From Minisyncoccota bacterium (GTDB taxonomy: Bacteria; Patescibacteriota; Minisyncoccia; Minisyncoccales; CG1-02-41-26): a DNA stretch of 40,213 nucleotides. A program made the translations under genes and the position numbers. Positions 4,300-40,213 of the stretch are shown one piece after another. Position 1 is the stretch's first letter; each line of letters starts with the position of its first letter. The notes beneath the pieces are model-generated. The model was not told the origin of the DNA. It saw only the letters and a list, made by a program, of their open reading frames with translations, and did not search any database. The stretch covers positions 1 to 40,213 of the forward strand of contig JAQULB010000001.1 of the NCBI GenBank assembly GCA_028718785.1. The letters are read 5' to 3'.

Positions 4300-4705
4300 G
4301 TTAGTAATTCTTATTTGAGCGATGAGCTCTGCGAGTTGCGAAAATTAGAAGTACTTACACCCTGTGAAGTAAGATTTGAGGCGACTTTTTAAAAATCTAT
4401 TACCGTAAGATGTTTTTAAATATTTTTCTCTATGCATAGCATCTTTACGGTCAAGGCATGCTTCAGAATATATAAGCTGGAACGGCCTTCTATTTTTGGT
4501 CGAGGAGACACGCCCTTTTTGATGCTCCTCAAATCTTAATTTTAAATTTTCAGTATAACCAATATAGAGCTTCTTATCTTTTTCAGAAAGCAAAACATAA
4601 ATATAGAAATACATGCTCTTTGCTGAAAATTTAAAATTACTTCACGGGGTAAATCCTCCGTAAGCTTGAACTTCACCTGATAGCTCGTTCTCGCTAACGG
4701 ATTAT
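4300..4705 (-). mobile_element. Three-hairpin intergenic element, copy A, carrying a GIY-YIG ORF
   Basis: Arms ccctgtgaagtaa (4360-4372) and ttacttcacgggg (4637-4649) flank the ORF; P1/P3-type side stems; fills the gap between genes. Confidence 0.7.
4345..4614 (-). CDS. GIY-YIG nuclease family protein (single domain)
   Basis: YIYVLLSEKDKKLYIGYTENLKLRFEEHQKG ... YSEACLDRKDAMHREKYLKTSYG. Confidence 0.92.
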   Translation of the reverse strand: MYFYIYVLLSEKDKKLYIGYTENLKLRFEEHQKGRVSSTKNRRPFQLIYSEACLDRKDAMHREKYLKTSYGNRFLKSRLKSYFTGCKYF

Positions 4706-4807
4706 TTACTTAATTAACCCAAGCGTGCTTGAAAAACCTTTTGTTAAAAACAAAACACCCACAATAAAAAGCGCAAGCACTATTAAAACATCCAAAAATT
4801 TCATCAT
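4706..4807 (-). CDS. 33-aa small membrane protein MMKFLDVLIVLALFIVGVLFLTKGFSSTLGLIK
   Basis: Hand-translated; sits exactly between elements A and B. Confidence 0.5.
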   Translation of the reverse strand: MMKFLDVLIVLALFIVGVLFLTKGFSSTLGLIK

Positions 4808-5209
4808 GATAGAAGTCGTTAATGAGGAGCGAAGCGACAAATTTACGAATTCTTACACCCTGTGAAGTAAGATTTGAGGCGACTTTTTAAAAATCTATTA
4901 CCGTAAGATGTTTTTAAATATTTTTCTCTATGCATAGCATCTTTACGGTCAAGGCATGCTTCAGAATATATAAGCTGGAACGGCCTTCTATTTTTGGTCG
5001 AGGAGACACGCCCTTTTTGATGCTCCTCAAATCTTAATTTTAAATTTTCAGTATAACCAATATAGAGCTTCTTATCTTTTTCAGAAAGCAAAACATAAAT
5101 ATAGAAATACATGCTCTTTGCTGAAAATTTAAAATTACTTCACGGGGTAAATCCTCCGTAAATTTCAAGCTTCGGCTATCGCCTCGCTTTCAATAACGGA
5201 TTATTTATT
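4808..5209 (-). mobile_element. Three-hairpin intergenic element, copy B, carrying an identical GIY-YIG ORF
   Basis: 310 bp identical by eye to copy A (4354-4663 vs 4852-5161), with divergent flanking P1/P3 stems. Confidence 0.7.
4843..5112 (-). CDS. GIY-YIG nuclease family protein (second copy)
   Basis: Identical protein to 4345-4614 except the last two residues (KNS vs KYF). Confidence 0.92.
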   Translation of the reverse strand: MYFYIYVLLSEKDKKLYIGYTENLKLRFEEHQKGRVSSTKNRRPFQLIYSEACLDRKDAMHREKYLKTSYGNRFLKSRLKSYFTGCKNS

Positions 5210-11164: not shown

Positions 11165-11196
11165 AGAACATATAACATAAAACTTATAACGTTATT
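11159..11196. repeat. Heptameric tandem repeat CATAGAA-CATATAA-CATAAAA-CTTATAA-CGTTATT
   Basis: Read directly; 7-nt periodicity. Confidence 0.7.
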
Positions 11197-11551
11197 GCAA
11201 ATTCTTTATAATACCCCACAGCATTGCTCCAACTTTCTCTGCTTTTTCAATTGCTTGTTTATAATCCCGGATAGATAAATATTTCTCTACTAATGAGAAA
11301 TGTAAGAGGCATTTACTTTCTTTTAGTGATCCATAAGAAATCTCTAAAAAATTTTTGTATACTTTTTCTTTTTCTCTATTTCTCGCGTGCCCTTCAATAT
11401 AATTTAGAATAATCGAAAGCGCCGATCTTCTTATTTGTGAAACAACCCCAAATAGATCGTCCCTTGGGAATTTTCTTGTTAATCTGTAAAACAAATGAGC
11501 ATAACTATCCATTTTATTCTTTAAACTTTCGTGAAAAGTTTCAGGTTTCAT
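11192..11551 (-). CDS. Four-helix-bundle protein (23S rRNA IVS / Avd-like family)
   Basis: LTRKFPRDDLFGVVSQIRRSALSIILNYIEGHARN pattern typical of the family. Confidence 0.88.
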   Translation of the reverse strand: MKPETFHESLKNKMDSYAHLFYRLTRKFPRDDLFGVVSQIRRSALSIILNYIEGHARNREKEKVYKNFLEISYGSLKESKCLLHFSLVEKYLSIRDYKQAIEKAEKVGAMLWGIIKNLQ

Positions 11552-16559: not shown

Positions 16560-16737
16560 GTTAGAAATTGTTAATTGAATGGCGAATTTATGAGCCGTGA
16601 AATTTACAAGTTCTTACGCCCTGTGAAGTAGAAATTTGATCTGCAAATTTCTGTTTTAAATTTTTAGCAAAAATTTCAAATTACTTCACGGGGTTTAAGG
16701 TTTTGTAAAGCTTGGGCTTCGCCCTCGCTAACAAACC
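16560..16737 (-). repeat. Three-hairpin intergenic element, copy C (no ORF)
   Basis: ccctgtgaagta...tacttcacgggg with two AT-rich inner hairpins; flanking P1/P3 stems. Confidence 0.7.
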
Positions 16738-17037
16738 CTAAAACTTCTTCTTAGAGAGTTCTTCCAGTGTCATTGGTTTTTCCTTTTTCTCGGATTTTTG
16801 GTCTTTTTCGGTTTCTTTAATATCTTTTTCCCTTAATTTCCTATCTTTTTTCTCTAATTTAGCTAAAACATTGATAACCTCTTTGCCTTTATAAAATCCG
16901 CAGTTTGGACAAACACTATGTAGCTTTCTTGGCTTGGCGCATTTTGGGCAAGCACCCAAAGTTGTCTCAGCAATAAACTGATGCATTCTTCTCTTTTTTA
17001 CCCTTGATTTTGTTAGATGTCTTTTTGGAACACTCAT
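16738..17037 (-). CDS. rpmF: 50S ribosomal protein L32 with charged C-terminal extension
   Basis: MSVPKRHLTKSRVKKRRMHQ...CPKCAKPRKLHSVCPNCGFYKGKEV. Confidence 0.95.
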   Translation of the reverse strand: MSVPKRHLTKSRVKKRRMHQFIAETTLGACPKCAKPRKLHSVCPNCGFYKGKEVINVLAKLEKKDRKLREKDIKETEKDQKSEKKEKPMTLEELSKKKF

Positions 17038-17190
17038 GCGATTAGAAATTGTTAATTGAATGGCGAACGATTAGCGAGCCGTGAAATTTACAAGTTCTTC
17101 GTCCAGTTAAATGAAATACTTCAAATTTCATTTAACTGGATACCTTGTTTAACTGGGGTAGGTCCCCTGCTTCACTAACGCATTAGATAG
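17038..17190 (-). repeat. Three-hairpin intergenic element, copy D (variant)
   Basis: P3 end matches copy C (tgaaatttacaagttctt, ttagaaattgttaattgaatggcgaa); central stem ccagttaaatgaaat/atttcatttaactgg. Confidence 0.6.
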
Positions 17191-18129: not shown

Positions 18130-18168
18130 TTATTTAGCGGATTCGCTGTTGTGTGGCGAATCGCTTTT
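18130..18168 (+). terminator. Terminator (AGCGGATTCGCTGTTGTGTGGCGAATCGCTTTT)
   Basis: Hairpin plus T-run; related copy near 22866-22893. Confidence 0.7.
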
Positions 18169-18793
18169 ATTTTAAATTAAAACTTTGTCGGTGGATTTTA
18201 CAGGGGCCGTGTTTAGATAGAACGGTTAGGTGTTGAGGCGTGCCATAGCCCTTGTTTTTATTAAAACCATATTGGGGATATTTTTTATGTAATTTTATCA
18301 TTAAATTGTCTCGCTCCACTTTAGCTATAATTGAAGCTAAAGAAATTAAAAAAACCTTTTCATCTCCTTTTATAATTGACTGCTGAGGCCTTGCTATGTT
18401 AATGCCAAAGTTTCCGTCAATTAAAAGCGCATCCGCTTTTTTGCCAATTTTCTTTTCTAAGTTTAAAACCGCTTTTTCCATTGCCAGCTTTGTGGCCTGG
18501 AGAATATTTATTTTATCAATAACTTTTTCTGAAACTTTCCCAATCCCCCACTGAACTTCTGAGCTCTTTTTTAAAAAATTGTAAATTTCCTCTCTCTGTT
18601 TGGGAGTTAATTTCTTAGAATCCTTAATTTTTAACTTTTGATTTGCATTTTTGACTTTCCCTCGACCTGAGCTCGGGACGAAGGTTGACTTTTGATTTTT
18701 GATTTGCATTATCGCGCACGCCATCACAGGTCCCGCCAACGAACCACGACCAACCTCGTCAATCCCAAAAACAATTTTTTCTCCATTTTGCAT
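18167..18793 (-). CDS. rnhB: Ribonuclease HII with in-frame repeat insertion
   Basis: FGIDEVGRGSLAGPV; DSKKLTPKQREEIY; LASIIAKVERD. Confidence 0.95.
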   Translation of the reverse strand: MQNGEKIVFGIDEVGRGSLAGPVMACAIMQIKNQKSTFVPSSGRGKVKNANQKLKIKDSKKLTPKQREEIYNFLKKSSEVQWGIGKVSEKVIDKINILQATKLAMEKAVLNLEKKIGKKADALLIDGNFGINIARPQQSIIKGDEKVFLISLASIIAKVERDNLMIKLHKKYPQYGFNKNKGYGTPQHLTVLSKHGPCKIHRQSFNLK

Positions 18794-22792: not shown

Positions 22793-22865
22793 TGGATAAT
22801 TTTTAATTTTGTAATTTTTAATTTTTAAATAATTTTTAATGACAGAATTTTAAAATAAAAGCGGT

Positions 22866-22893
22866 CCGCCATACAACAGCGAATCCGCCAGGA
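22866..22893 (-). terminator. Terminator related to 18130-18168
   Basis: Minus GGCGGATTCGCTGTTGTATGGCGGACCGCTTTTATTTTAAAA. Confidence 0.6.
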
Positions 22894-24001: not shown

Positions 24002-25804
24002 ATGAATAACATTGAAACAATTCGCCACTCATTAAGCCATATTATGGCCATGGCGGTTAAAAACTTATATCCCAATACAAAATTTGGCATTGGCCCGGCC
24101 ATTGATAATGGCTTTTATTATGATTTTGACTTGCCACGCCAAAGCTTTGAAGGAGCGAAGGCGGGTTTGTCCATTGACGACTTGCCAAAAATTGAAAAAG
24201 AAATGCAAGCCATTATTAAAAGCAACATTGATTTTATAAAAAAAGAAATATTTCAAGACGAAGCAGAAAAACTCTTTGCTAACCAGCCCTACAAACTTGA
24301 GCTTGTCAAAGAATTAACTTCCACCGGTAAGACCGGTGTAACTATCTACACAAGCGGAGATTTTACAGACCTGTGTGCTGGACCCCATATTGAAAACACC
24401 AAAGAGATTAATCCCCTATCGTTTAAGTTAACCAAAGTGGCTGGGGCTTATTGGAAGGGAGATGAAAAAAACAAAATGCTCACCCGTATTTACGGATTAG
24501 CTTTTGCCACAGAAACCGAATTAACTGATTATTTAAAAATATTAGAAGAAGCAGAGAAACGTGACCACCGCAAACTAGGTCGTGAGCTTGATTTATTTTT
24601 AATTGACCCAACCGTTGGCATGGGTTTGGCAATGTGGCAACCAAAAGGGGCAATGTTGTGGCGAATTATGGAAGATTTTTGGTATCAAGAACACTTAAAA
24701 AATGGCTACGAGTTAGTAAGAACACCCCATATTGGCAGCCGAAAACTTTGGGAAACATCTGGCCATTGGGGATTTTACAATGAAAGTATGTATCCCCCGT
24801 TAGAAGTAAGTCAAACATTAAAAGAAGCTCAAGAGGGCAAAAAATCAGAAATAAAAGAAGAGTATTTGTTAAAACCAATGAACTGCCCCTTTCATGTAAG
24901 CATTTACAATTCCAAACCGCGAAGCTACCGGGATTTGCCAATTAGGTGGGCGGAATGTGGCACTGTTTATAGATATGAAAAATCCGGTGAATTATCTGGA
25001 TTAACCAGAGTACGGGGCTTTACTCAAGACGATGCCCACATTATTTGCGCTAAAACTCAGGTAAAAGACGAACTAAAAAGAGTGGCTGATTTTATTATTT
25101 TTATTCTCAACACTTTTGGATTTAAAGAGTTTAATGTTTATTTGTCCTTAAGAGACCCAAATAACAAAGAAAAATACGCAGGCAATGACGAGGGCTGGGA
25201 GTTTACCCAAAAAGTGCTTGAAGAAGTGGCAAAAGAACAAGGCCTAAATTACAAAAAAGAAGAGGGTGAAGCGGCTTTTTATGGACCAAAGCTTGACTAT
25301 AAAATAAAAGATTGTCTTGGCCGAGAATGGCAATGTTCCACTTTGCAGTTTGATTTTAACTTGCCCGAAAGATTTGATATGACCTTTATTAACCAAAAAG
25401 GAGAAAAAGAAAGGCCTTTCGTTTTGCACCGAGCTTTGTTTGGCTCTTTTGAAAGGTTTATTGGGGTTTTAATTGAGCATTACGCTGGCTCTTTCCCTGT
25501 GTGGTTATCCCCCACTCAAGCCATTGTTTTGCCAATTGGGGAAAGCCATCAAACATACGGCCAAGAAGTTTTAAAAACCTTAAAACAAAATAACATCAGA
25601 GCCCAAATAAATTTAAACAATGACACCATTGGCAAAAAAATCCGCGAGTCAGAAATGCAAAAAATACCCTATATTTTGGTGGTTGGAGATAAAGAAATTA
25701 AAGCTAATTCTGTAGCTGTTCGATCGCGCAATGAGGACCTTGGCGTAATGACAACTGAAAAATTTATTGATACAATTAAACAAAAAGTCGAAACCAAAAA
25801 ATAA
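24002..25804 (+). CDS. thrS: Threonyl-tRNA synthetase
   Basis: GPAIDNGFYYDFDL; LKPMNCPFHVSIY; RVRGFTQDDAHI; HRALFGSFERF. Confidence 0.97.
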   Translation: MNNIETIRHSLSHIMAMAVKNLYPNTKFGIGPAIDNGFYYDFDLPRQSFEGAKAGLSIDDLPKIEKEMQAIIKSNIDFIKKEIFQDEAEKLFANQPYKLELVKELTSTGKTGVTIYTSGDFTDLCAGPHIENTKEINPLSFKLTKVAGAYWKGDEKNKMLTRIYGLAFATETELTDYLKILEEAEKRDHRKLGRELDLFLIDPTVGMGLAMWQPKGAMLWRIMEDFWYQEHLKNGYELVRTPHIGSRKLWETSGHWGFYNESMYPPLEVSQTLKEAQEGKKSEIKEEYLLKPMNCPFHVSIYNSKPRSYRDLPIRWAECGTVYRYEKSGELSGLTRVRGFTQDDAHIICAKTQVKDELKRVADFIIFILNTFGFKEFNVYLSLRDPNNKEKYAGNDEGWEFTQKVLEEVAKEQGLNYKKEEGEAAFYGPKLDYKIKDCLGREWQCSTLQFDFNLPERFDMTFINQKGEKERPFVLHRALFGSFERFIGVLIEHYAGSFPVWLSPTQAIVLPIGESHQTYGQEVLKTLKQNNIRAQINLNNDTIGKKIRESEMQKIPYILVVGDKEIKANSVAVRSRNEDLGVMTTEKFIDTIKQKVETKK

Positions 25805-25997
25805 GTAATCCGTTATTGAAAGCGAGCCGTAAGGCGAAGCTTGAAATTTACGGAGGACTTACCCCGTGGAGTATAAATTTGCAGAGCAAATTTATATTTT
25901 AATTTTTTTGCAAAAAAATTAAAATTACTCCACAGGGTGTAAGAACTCGTAAATTCACTCGTGGCCAATCGCCACTCATTCATTAACGATTTCTAAC
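25805..25997 (+). repeat. Three-hairpin intergenic element, copy E (no ORF, opposite orientation)
   Basis: Reverse complement closely matches copy B ends; central stem ccccgtggagta/tactccacaggg carries a compensatory change. Confidence 0.75.
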
Positions 25998-28697: not shown

Positions 28698-29717
28698 ATG
28701 TTAAAGAACAAAGATACTCTAACACAATGCAGCAAAAAAGTCAACAGAAAAAGCAAGCTTATTGTGATTCTTGGCCCAACAGCCAGTGGAAAAAGCGATT
28801 TAGCGGTTAAGTTGGCGAAAAGCCCTGCCCTGAGTAAAATCGAAGGGTTCAATGGCGAGATAGTTTGCGCTGACTCACGCCAAGTTTATCGCGGAATGTC
28901 CATCGGCACCGCCTCCCCAAGTTTGCGGAGCCCTGGGCTCCCCGTGGTGATCCATCATTTGTTTAATTTTGTGGAGCCAAATAAACCGCTTAATGTGGCT
29001 ACTTATAAAAAAATGGCGATTAAAACCATAAAAGACATTCAAAAAAGAGGCAAAATGCCATTTTTGGTTGGAGGAACCGGGCTTTACGTAAAAGCCATTG
29101 TTGATAACCTGAAATTTCCGAAGATGGAACCGAATGCAAAACTGCGCAAGGAATTAGAGCAAAAAACCGCACCCCAACTTTTTGGCATATATAAAAAACT
29201 TGATAAAAAAGGCGCTTTGCAAATAGATAAAAACAACAAACGCCGGCTCATAAGGGCCATCGAGGTTTGTAAAATAACTGGTGAACCATTTTGGACTCAA
29301 CGCCAAAAGGCCATTCCCCTTTTTGATATTTTGCAAATTGGCATAAACGCGCCAAAAACAGAACTTGAAAAAAGAATAAAAAAACGAACGGAAAAAATGT
29401 TTAAACAAGGCCTTGAAAAAGAAGTAAAAAAATTAGTAAAAAAATACGGCTGGACTCCTGTTTTACAAAACACTATCGGCTACTCTGAGTGGCGCGCTTC
29501 CTCGAAGCCACTCGGTGGCCTCGACTTTCCTCGAAGCCACTCGGTGGCCTTGACTGCCTCTCATGCAACAAAAAAAGAGCTTCAAGAGTTAATTTCTTTA
29601 CATACAATCCAATACGCCAAACGCCAAATGACTTGGTTTAAAAAAAATGAGCGGATTCTTTGGGTAAAAAATTACCAAGAAGCCGCCCGAAAAGTTTTAA
29701 CATTTTTGAATGATTAA
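28698..29717 (+). CDS. miaA: tRNA dimethylallyltransferase with in-frame repeat insertions
   Basis: VILGPTASGKSDLAVKLAK; EIVCADSRQVYRGMSIGTA; PFLVGGTGLYVKAI. Confidence 0.95.
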   Translation: MLKNKDTLTQCSKKVNRKSKLIVILGPTASGKSDLAVKLAKSPALSKIEGFNGEIVCADSRQVYRGMSIGTASPSLRSPGLPVVIHHLFNFVEPNKPLNVATYKKMAIKTIKDIQKRGKMPFLVGGTGLYVKAIVDNLKFPKMEPNAKLRKELEQKTAPQLFGIYKKLDKKGALQIDKNNKRRLIRAIEVCKITGEPFWTQRQKAIPLFDILQIGINAPKTELEKRIKKRTEKMFKQGLEKEVKKLVKKYGWTPVLQNTIGYSEWRASSKPLGGLDFPRSHSVALTASHATKKELQELISLHTIQYAKRQMTWFKKNERILWVKNYQEAARKVLTFLND

Positions 29718-36562: not shown

Positions 36563-36751
36563 ATTAGAAATTCTTAATTGAGCAAATGCCTATAATTTTT
36601 TTATGTGCATTTGCGAAATTTAGAAGTTTTTACACCCCGTTAAATAATTTTAAATTTTGCAAAATTTAAAATTAAAATTTGTACTCAAATTTTATTTAAC
36701 GGGGTTAGGTATCTGTAATCACTCGGGCTAATCGCCTTCGTGAACAGCTAC
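36563..36751 (-). repeat. Three-hairpin intergenic element, copy F (no ORF)
   Basis: ccccgttaaataa/ttatttaacgggg central stem; P1 TTAGGTAgCTGT/ACAGaTACCTAA. Confidence 0.7.
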
Positions 36752-38269
36752 CTAATCGTGCCAACCATAAAGATCCTTTTTTGCTTCTATTCTTTCTAAT
36801 ATTGGTTGGGGTTCTTGGATTATTTTTTTAAACAAAGGCGCGCCCGGCACTTTCTCTTTTTCTACTGTTGGTTCTTGTTGAGATAAAGCAACATCGCCGT
36901 CTTGCTCATAACTAATCTGATTTTTTAAACAAAGTTCGGCTTTTTGCAATTCCCTGCCCAAATACATTGCATGCTCCACTGTTTGTTCAAAATCACCCAC
37001 CATTTGCATTTGCCCAATTTTATAACAAATATCCAAGGCCGAGTCCCCAATCACCTTTTGGGTTGTTTTGCCATTTTGCAAATGTTCCACTATAATTTTT
37101 TTTTGAGCGGGTCGTAAGTAAACCACAAAAAAGCCGTTTGGATCCTCTTTCCAATCAAAAGGTCCTTTGGCCTCAACTTCTTCTACTTTGTCAAGATTAA
37201 TTTTTTCTCCTTTGTATGGTTCTTTATTTTTCATCAAACAGTTCTCAACCGCCATCATTACAACAGACGAATCAGTTTCTCCGTTTAAATTTATGGGTTC
37301 AATTTGCGCCCTAAATCTTTCAATAATTTCAAAATCCAAACCTTTTAACTGGGGCATATTGCCAACAGCGCCTATAATATTCTTGTCTTTATCAACCCCA
37401 TTTTGCTTCAATGACATAAACGCCTGCTCCACAAAATGCCCTTTTGAGGGCTTGCCACAAAGAATTAAAAACCGAATATTGGGATTGGCAACCACATTTT
37501 GAATAATTTTTTCAATGCCAATATTTTCTGTAACACACTTGCCACAAATTGCCACCTTTTCCATATCTAATATAATGCCTTCCACTGTGGCATTAGTACA
37601 AACAGCCACAGATGAATTTTTGTTGCCCACATAAAACCTACCCTCAACCTCGGGCCAGTTTTCTAAATTAACCTGTTCGCTTCTTTGGGTTTCTTTAGTT
37701 TTAAACTCCTCGCTTATCTTGCTCGCCACCGCTGTTTCTTGCACAGCATATTTTGCGTCTTTTTTGGCTTGATAGGTTTTTTCACAAGGACTAGAAAGAG
37801 TTTCAAAAGTTAAAGCGCAAATTCTCATTCCAGAGTATAAAACAACTGGCATTACCCCTAAATTGCCAAGCTCCATTACTGGCTTGCCATTCCAGCCCGG
37901 GTCAAACCGAGCGGCTGTTGAGTGAACCACCACTCCCAATCGACCCAAAGAACTTCGGCCATCTAATCGACCCATTAAATCATTGTCAATAAAAACATCC
38001 TCCATTGTTACTGCCAATATAAACTCGCCGGGCTGTAAAATAAACGGACTGTCAGGAGCAATAACAATATCCTCCATAATATCATCAACATTGAACGGCC
38101 TTTTTAAGTCAACATAGGGATAACGGGACTGTTTAAAAACCTTAAACGAATTTCCCAATCGTAAATCTAAAGAACAGGGTCCAAGCTGTTTTTCAAGATC
38201 TGGAGCAGGACTTATTTTTATTTTTCCCCTGTTGATATACTCTTTAATGTCTTTGTCGGATAAAATCAT
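36752..38269 (-). CDS. dcd: dCTP deaminase fused to an MtrA-like / DUF4346-like C-terminal region
   Basis: N-term GPCSLDLRLGN, GRLDGRSSLGRLGVVVHSTAARFDPGWNG; C-term NWPEVEGRFYVGNKNSSVAVCT...ICGKCVTENIGIEKIIQNVVANPNIRFLILCGKPSKGH. Confidence 0.85.
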   Translation of the reverse strand: MILSDKDIKEYINRGKIKISPAPDLEKQLGPCSLDLRLGNSFKVFKQSRYPYVDLKRPFNVDDIMEDIVIAPDSPFILQPGEFILAVTMEDVFIDNDLMGRLDGRSSLGRLGVVVHSTAARFDPGWNGKPVMELGNLGVMPVVLYSGMRICALTFETLSSPCEKTYQAKKDAKYAVQETAVASKISEEFKTKETQRSEQVNLENWPEVEGRFYVGNKNSSVAVCTNATVEGIILDMEKVAICGKCVTENIGIEKIIQNVVANPNIRFLILCGKPSKGHFVEQAFMSLKQNGVDKDKNIIGAVGNMPQLKGLDFEIIERFRAQIEPINLNGETDSSVVMMAVENCLMKNKEPYKGEKINLDKVEEVEAKGPFDWKEDPNGFFVVYLRPAQKKIIVEHLQNGKTTQKVIGDSALDICYKIGQMQMVGDFEQTVEHAMYLGRELQKAELCLKNQISYEQDGDVALSQQEPTVEKEKVPGAPLFKKIIQEPQPILERIEAKKDLYGWHD

Positions 38270-39773: not shown

Positions 39774-40009
39774 ATTAGTAATTCTTAATGAATGAAATGA
39801 ATTTAGAATTTCTTATACCCCGTTAAACGCGACCTCAAGGAGCTGTTTAACTGGAGTTTGCTTATATTTCTATCCATACCCCAGTGAAGTAAAATTTGAG
39901 TACAAATTTTAATTTTAAATTTTAATAAATTGTTCAGCAATTTTTAAAATTTAAAATTACTTCACGGGGTTAAGGTTTTCTACGGCTCGCTTTGCCTCGC
40001 CAAGAAACC
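39774..40009 (-). repeat. Three-hairpin intergenic element, copy G (composite)
   Basis: Extra hairpin ccccgttaaac..gtttaactgg plus complete gtgaagtaaaatttg...aaattacttcacgggg unit. Confidence 0.65.
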
Positions 40010-40213
40010 CTAAACTTTTTTCACTTGTAGCGAATCCACTTCCACGGGCGTGTCTCGACCAAAAATATTAACTAACACTTTAAGCTTTCCTCTTTGTTCG
40101 TCAATTTCAGAAACCTTGCCTTCAAAATCCTTAAACGGTCCGTCAGTAATTTTTACCAAAGCCCCAATAACAAAATCAACCGTGTATTGAGGGTCTTCTG
40201 CTCCGCTTCTCTT
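40010..40213 (-). CDS. nusG: Transcription termination/antitermination protein NusG (3' part, truncated by window edge)
   Basis: Minus-strand translation ...DFVIGALVKITDGPFKDFEGKVSEIDEQRGKLKVLVNIFGRDTPVEVDSLQVKKV*. Confidence 0.92.
   Translation of the reverse strand, partial: KRSGAEDPQYTVDFVIGALVKITDGPFKDFEGKVSEIDEQRGKLKVLVNIFGRDTPVEVDSLQVKKV

Follow-up and report, generated by a model that had tools for sequence, protein, structure and literature searches.

The repeat copy between thrS and the gene of a 375-aa protein (copy E) is probably a non-autonomous derivative of a mobile inverted-repeat element, whose parent encodes a GIY-YIG nuclease and which would move by a nuclease-based mechanism. 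The window, i.e. the whole analysed stretch of 40,213 nt, belongs to a patescibacterial genome of 841 kb in 18 contigs (G000). Seven copies (A-G) with one layout were located in the window, copy D being degenerate. The unit is built as H1-P2-H3: a central palindrome lies between two outer hairpins that are inverted relative to each other (Table 1). The element bears on the tolerance of streamlined genomes towards mobile DNA and on the start of translation beside a hairpin.

Layout of the unit and maintenance of base pairing

Table 1. Positions of the element copies and their parts in the window
Feature	Positions	Strand	Remarks
Copy A, H3 hairpin	4300-4358	-	ends at ATG of 102-aa ORF
Copy A, GIY-YIG nuclease gene, 89 codons plus stop	4345-4614	-	in P2 loop; PF01541, E = 1.1e-17
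Copy A, P2 cassette, 292 nt	4359-4650	-	arms ACCCCGTGAAGTA / TACTTCACAGGGT
Copy A, H1 hairpin	4651-4707	-	
Copy B, H3 hairpin	4808-4856	-	ends at ATG of small hydrophobic-peptide ORF
Copy B, second GIY-YIG P2 cassette	4857-5148	-	about 98% identical to copy A
Copy B, H1 hairpin	5149-5207	-	
Copy C, ORF-less	16560-16739	-	H1 from TAG stop; P2 16618-16694; H3
Copy D, degenerate	17043-17180	-	missing in G001 orthologue
Copy E, whole unit	25802-25997	+	between thrS and 375-aa gene
Copy E, H1 (earlier P1), outer hairpin	25802-25861	+	starts with thrS stop TAA
Copy E, P2, central palindrome ACCCCGTGGAGTA..TACTCCACAGGGT	about 25861-25938	+	holds two AT-rich inner hairpins
Copy E, H3 (earlier P3), outer hairpin	25939-25997	+	last base precedes ATG of 375-aa gene
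Copy F	36563-36754	-	H1; P2 36634-36705 (GTTAAATA type); H3 ending at ATG
Copy G	39774-40012	-	H1; P2 39878-39970; H3 ending at ATG; additional small P2-like palindrome at about 39829-39856

Folded as RNA, copy E formed exactly three abutting stems, H1, P2 and H3, with the MFE of -68.9 kcal/mol (z -8.1, 0/200 shuffles). An alternative nested fold, in which both outer arms pair together, was the sense-strand MFE with DNA parameters; it arises because H1 and H3 are inverted relatives. The first-pass annotation had proposed a conserved three-stem fold with two AT-rich inner hairpins in the repeat copies. The copies were present where it had implied, copy E folded as proposed, and the paired positions changed on both sides beyond the level of the shuffles. 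The order of the two inner P2 hairpins was inverted in some copies. The P2 arms ACCCCGTGAAGTA were common to the GIY-YIG copies A and B and the solo copies, as were the H1 and H3 types.

The covariation was determined from anchored arms for H1 and P2 and from an alignment for H3; RNAalifold of the whole element recovered P2 alone due to the too different H1 types. Among the 49 distinct rows of H3, 96.2% of the pairs were standard compared with 85.3% after shuffling. Seven of the 11 pairs had changed on both sides, resulting in 59 double-change cells against 17 (0/500 shuffles), and slid partners paired only to 25-57%. The P3 variants described earlier (TCGT/ACGA, TTGT/ACAA, TTCT/AGAA) correspond to columns 24-25 of H3, for which UA 25/CG 23 and GC 29/CG 15 were counted.

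Across phyla, P2 was 97.1% paired (82.9% in shuffles), with 8 of the 14 pairs changed on both sides and the covariation unmatched in 500 shuffles (0/500). The P2 pairing of the first reading stands except for the fifth position of ACCCC, at which copies A, B, C and E carry an unpaired C.A (41/79 arm sets). The pairing of H1 amounted to 71% compared with 45% when the arms were dealt anew (0/1000). The earlier P1 pairing agrees with this in general and fails in its details: the H1 stem of copy E is TAAGTaaTCCGTTA/TTACGGAggACTTA and not GGATT, and copies A and B pair better in the register TAAAT/ATTTA plus TCCGT/ACGGA. Covariation, which had been expected in all three stems, was counted in each of them; as the shuffles preserve the column make-up and not the relatedness, the counts refer to pairing and not to numbers of independent events. 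The maintained pairing recurred in other Patescibacteria on stems of unrelated sequence. Base pairing is maintained in the element family, and the support for this is strong. The mobility of the family, the nuclease gene within P2 of copies A and B, and the abutment of the ends on stop and start codons were not part of the first-pass annotation.

Two other repeats were detected in the window. A second inverted repeat family (GCGGATTCGCTGTTGTGTGGCGAATCGC) at 18137-18176 and 22849-22888, 93% complementary over 40 nt, is unrelated to H1-P2-H3. A 29-bp unit (TTCCTCGAAGCCACTCGGTGGCCTCGACT) is tandemly duplicated at 29498-29555 (+) within a 339-aa ORF resembling miaA.

Genomic distribution, insertion sites and strand preference

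The copies were counted with a covariance model of the right P2 arm plus H3. G000, G001 (JAUSHZ01, E14_metabat.bin.214) and G002 represent one genus, and G022 (PFAV01, labelled Candidatus Gribaldobacteria) belongs to the same family. At least 84 copies were found in G000, 94 in G001, 19 in G022 and 5 in G008; the congener G002 had none, and the other family members had 0-2. The ORF-less P2 pattern had 25 occurrences in G000, and of 379 other genomes two contained it, each a single time. The amplification is therefore lineage-specific, whereas the nuclease cassette itself is widespread: relatives of the GIY-YIG protein at E <= 1e-18 were present in 90 of the 380 sampled genomes of the phylum.

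The right end of the element was sharply placed. When H3 hairpins were searched for by pairing alone, with the start codon unused, 65 of the 85 hairpins ended precisely at an ATG and 77 no more than six bases from one, and 75 of these 77 adjoining starts opened an ORF of at least 50 codons. At the left end, 28 of the 92 parsed copies started at the upstream stop codon, the upstream ORF continued into the element in 28, and a -10-like box preceded 12. The C-termini of several ribosomal proteins were lengthened by H1-encoded residues, namely rpsQ and rpsE in G000 (L004) and rplE in G001 (L067). Such extensions, for example ..SDGELKAKIED* and ..DASRKQGEAKV*, were missing in relatives without the element.

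Orthologous junctions differed in the presence or absence of whole units. Within the ribosomal operon, G000 has an empty rpsS>rplV junction of 5 bases and G001 a filled one of 200 bases, whereas rplP>rpmC and rpsQ>rplN were filled in G000 and empty in G001. The site upstream of rpsS, that of copy D and several more loci were likewise filled in G000 and empty in G001. In G002, almost every junction of the operon was just a few bases long. In an essential operon of a reduced genome, the element has thus remodelled the greater part of the gene junctions and left the genes unbroken. These comparisons indicate that whole units were gained or lost and that the element is mobile, although some "empty" junctions could reflect loss, as the compared genes of G000 and G001 share about 82% identity. 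One P2 was nested in another P2 with a clean junction (AAATT, then ACCCTG..CAGGGT, then ACTTC). A consistent target site duplication was not found at the insertions; a weak excess of short direct repeats was noted (mean 3.5 vs 3.15, 2/300).

The position of the unit is also what would be expected of an RNA element, in which the polycistronic mRNA would retain the three stems for processing, stability or downstream translation start, and which would have spread since it is useful to the cell. Nearly all copies separate genes of the same direction, and H3 mostly stops precisely at ATG (65/85), in the 12 copies behind a -10-like box the element makes up the entire 5' UTR, the sense RNA folds very well (z -8.1), and no Shine-Dalgarno motif was seen between H3 and ATG. 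However, the mismatches point the other way. The sense-strand G.U and A.C counts were 23/37 in H1, 20/61 in P2 and 6/23 in H3; the counts span related copies, and their direction is more trustworthy than any p-value. Selection on sense RNA predicts tolerated G.U, hence the excess of A.C argues against it. H1 was more stable as sense in 84 of 92 copies, but H3 as antisense in 88 of 93, a flip which is expected of the inverted ends of a DNA element. In addition, the congener G002 manages with an intact ribosomal operon and no copies, and P2 can hold a 270-nt gene or a nested palindrome. We consider the RNA element unlikely.

The comparison of orthologous copies revealed the source of many of the paired changes. 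In 14 orthologous element pairs of G000 and G001, the median identity was 0.88 for H1, 0.69 for P2 and 0.88 for H3, compared with 0.82 for the downstream genes. The arms of P2 mostly differed on both sides together while H1 and H3 stayed alike, which indicates that the P2 differences are largely swaps of ready-made palindromes. At thrS, copy E and its G001 orthologue were identical to 0.97 in H1 and 0.98 in H3, and P2 was a different palindrome. In the orthologues L011 and L068 the P2 loop was inverted in place. The first-pass annotation had concluded from the compensatory changes that the structure is under selection as RNA or single-stranded DNA. The maintained pairing is strongly supported and single-stranded DNA is possible, but selection as RNA does not follow, given the cassette swaps, the wobble counts and the strand flip, and the support for the RNA reading is only partial. 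By itself, covariation within a mobile palindrome does not demonstrate a functional RNA, and the strand and wobble test calls for caution.

Both the inversion in place and the swapping of P2 between copies would also be produced if ordinary recombination and quasi-palindrome correction during replication homogenised the palindromes and thereby created an apparent covariation, without any special mobility; hairpins are known to provoke template switching. Such homogenisation does not account for whole units gained or lost at junctions which have a few bases in relatives, for the copy numbers of 84, 94 and 0 within one genus, or for the conserved nuclease, and is most improbable as the full explanation.

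Known RNA classes were searched for as well. Rfam, with gathering and with permissive thresholds, gave no match reaching a cut-off. A group I/II or rRNA intron was rejected: the parsed GIY-YIG cassettes were 265-300 nt long with a single exception of 384 nt, are nearly all ORF and leave no space for a ribozyme core, and the downstream genes retain their own ATG. A Shine-Dalgarno sequence in H1 (GGAGGA) was not kept across the H1 types.

The GIY-YIG cassette and the proposed mechanism

The C-terminal codons of the copy A nuclease (..YFTG..) double as the right P2 arm. Inverted repeats were sought between the region before the ORF and the ORF end, the 99th percentile of shuffled controls being 10. 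At 36 of the 51 distinct GIY-YIG loci, the flanks formed an inverted repeat with a score of 10 or more, with several arm families unrelated in sequence (ACCCTGTTAAATAA, ACCCCGTTAGAGATA, TCCCGTTAGAGCCA, TACTACAACTTCAAT). As palindromic arms bound the same nuclease family in this way across Patescibacteria, P2 is most readily understood as the terminal inverted repeat pair of a nuclease cassette of ~290 bp. The element-borne nuclease genes of G000, G001 and G008 were under purifying selection, with the dN/dS values of 0.035-0.15. By sequence, the closest solved relatives were the UPF0213 GIY-YIG proteins 1zg2 and 1ywl (E=1e-5 and 0.0014, respectively). Compared with the nuclease gene, the 177-nt P2 loop of L082 was significantly similar (0/200), whereas of the 118-124-nt loops just that of L068 was (3/200). 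The remaining 118-124-nt loops had little in common with the gene beyond the last codons and were rejected as decayed copies.

At four loci (L086, L089, L091, L098) a hairpin of unrelated sequence followed P2 and ended just before ATG, which is the layout of H3, and at L101 an H1-like hairpin stood ahead of P2. G004, a member of the family, had the same layout with yet another P2 and no GIY-YIG gene inside. Some P2 cassettes of other genomes (L079, L096, L100) lacked H1 and H3, given which H1/H3 may be a separate module; that of L100 (Staskawiczbacteria) lies within the lepA start region.

Further relatives were encountered outside the family. In a Deltaproteobacteria MAG (L102, near 550-870) and a Marinimicrobia MAG (L105, near 1490-1780), the cassette lay inside an IVP/S23-like gene at the identical codon site (..SN^[I]AEG..) in two phyla, resembling site-specific homing. 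The window itself contains a free-standing gene of a four-helix-bundle 23S rRNA intervening-sequence protein between other genes (11192-11551, -; PF05635, E 4.8e-22). The search of IMG/VR found one GIY-YIG relative, on a viral contig (L199), 61% identical and with apparent arms ACCCCGT../..ACGGGGT, which is perhaps a route of horizontal spread; the plasmid search gave one weak match of 38%.

Within the family, the genomes with a GIY-YIG protein at least 80% identical to that of the window (G000, G001, G008, G022) were, among 24, the same four that contained at least 5 copies. The chance of this split is about 1 in 10,600 if relatedness is ignored. In G022 the GIY-YIG cassette (L077) is seemingly broken by another repeat, consistent with the lower copy number there. 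The co-occurrence with copy number suggests the nuclease as the driver of the movement.

Another mover is conceivable: a Y1 (RAYT-type) transposase could have moved H1 and H3 as REP-like repeats, with the GIY-YIG cassette as an independent homing-type parasite at their junction. Three RAYT-like Y1_Tnp genes are present in G000, P2-GIY cassettes exist elsewhere without H1/H3, the H1/H3-like hairpins of G004 surround a different, gene-free P2, and a RAYT-like palindrome occupies one ribosomal junction (rplX/rplE) of G001. On the other hand, the element-free G002 also has three Y1 genes, the copy number tracks GIY-YIG and not Y1, and G008, with 5 copies and no Y1 match, weakens the Y1 reading further. 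The palindromes beside RAYT genes, where the flanks were readable, differed in sequence from those of the element. We find this explanation quite unlikely, and Y1 was rejected as the mover since the genes are present but with unrelated palindromes at the flanks examined. RAYT-like genes were present as L160, L164 and L168 in G000, L162 in G001, L161 in G002 and L167 in G022; those with readable flanks lay between short palindromes of separate types (e.g. TTACACCGGTCTTACCGGTGTAA, GGTTGGTATCCGATACCAACC), of which some stood shortly before ATG.

According to the favoured explanation, the GIY-YIG-driven element, copies of the A/B type would make the nuclease, and the palindromic ends would be recognised as cruciform, single-stranded or paired duplex ends. 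The nuclease would cut the element ends and a target, after which repair may copy the unit into new sites and convert P2 between copies. Insertions would persist at sites where they do no harm, in the space from a stop codon to the following start codon, with the left end carrying or adjoining the stop and the right end adjoining ATG. Base pairing would then be kept as the recognition structure of mobile DNA, and any function within the transcript may be a secondary one. Several points speak against this model, among them the lack of a consistent target duplication, the P2 cassettes without H1/H3 and the three Y1 genes of G000. The mobility is read from sequence comparison and not from observed movement, and selection for harmlessness does not by itself account for the near-absolute flushness with ATG. 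To our knowledge, no GIY-YIG protein is a proven transposase, nor do we know of transposition driven by this enzyme class.

It is a real possibility, which we put forward tentatively, that the element represents a new minimal transposon class widespread in Patescibacteria. In such a class, a GIY-YIG protein of ~89 aa would be the sole mobility protein, the palindromic ends would overlap its coding sequence, insertion would take place between stop and start codons, and ORF-less derivatives would occupy most ribosomal-protein operon junctions in one lineage. No earlier description of the element was found in the literature covered, most subscription papers and preprints lying outside it.

Comparison with known systems

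Rickettsia palindromic elements are mobile palindromes able to add codons to host genes. In a similar manner, H1 extends the C-termini of rpsQ, rpsE and rplE; however, the element described here occupies operon junctions instead of gene interiors, and a parent encoding a nuclease can be seen.

Free-standing GIY-YIG homing endonucleases include the Seg proteins of T4 and mobile endonuclease ORFs at fungal mitochondrial gene ends. A small gene spreading between intergenic sites and the homing-like exchange of cassettes are common features, as is the GIY-YIG domain under purifying selection. In contrast to these systems, the palindromic arms overlap the C-terminal codons of the nuclease, ORF-less derivatives occur, and dozens of unrelated junctions are occupied instead of the single site of allelic homing. 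We know of no UPF0213 GIY-YIG proteins lying in palindromic elements.

An ORF in the loop of an inserted stem-loop is also characteristic of 23S rRNA intervening sequences, and endonuclease-driven spread in the same phylum of the LAGLIDADG-bearing rRNA insertions of CPR bacteria (PMC11270868). The present element differs from both in lying outside rRNA, in not being an intron and in the nuclease family.

REP/BIME repeats with RAYT (TnpA_REP) transposases (PMC2817692, PMC3733652) share inverted hairpins around a linker, the intergenic location and the large number of copies. The element is much larger, with the P2 cassette, and its copy number follows GIY-YIG instead of the Y1 genes. Where this could be checked, the hairpins of the element did not flank Y1 genes, the flanks of which carry unrelated palindromes.

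MITEs (review PMC10969869) are short, palindromic, high-copy and intergenic, with a gene-bearing element having the same ends as source or mobiliser. Correspondingly, the palindromic ends are common to a gene-bearing parent in the same genome, and a high copy number is combined with presence/absence among close relatives. In contrast to MITEs, the parent gene encodes a GIY-YIG protein instead of a transposase of the DDE, tyrosine or HUH kind, target duplications are not consistently seen, each end has its own hairpin, and the ends adjoin a stop codon and a start codon. In its behaviour the element resembles a MITE family, and there is a substantial chance of a GIY-YIG-driven element constituting a new class. 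Small palindromic repeats of bacteria are often orphan, whereas a plausible parent is visible here.
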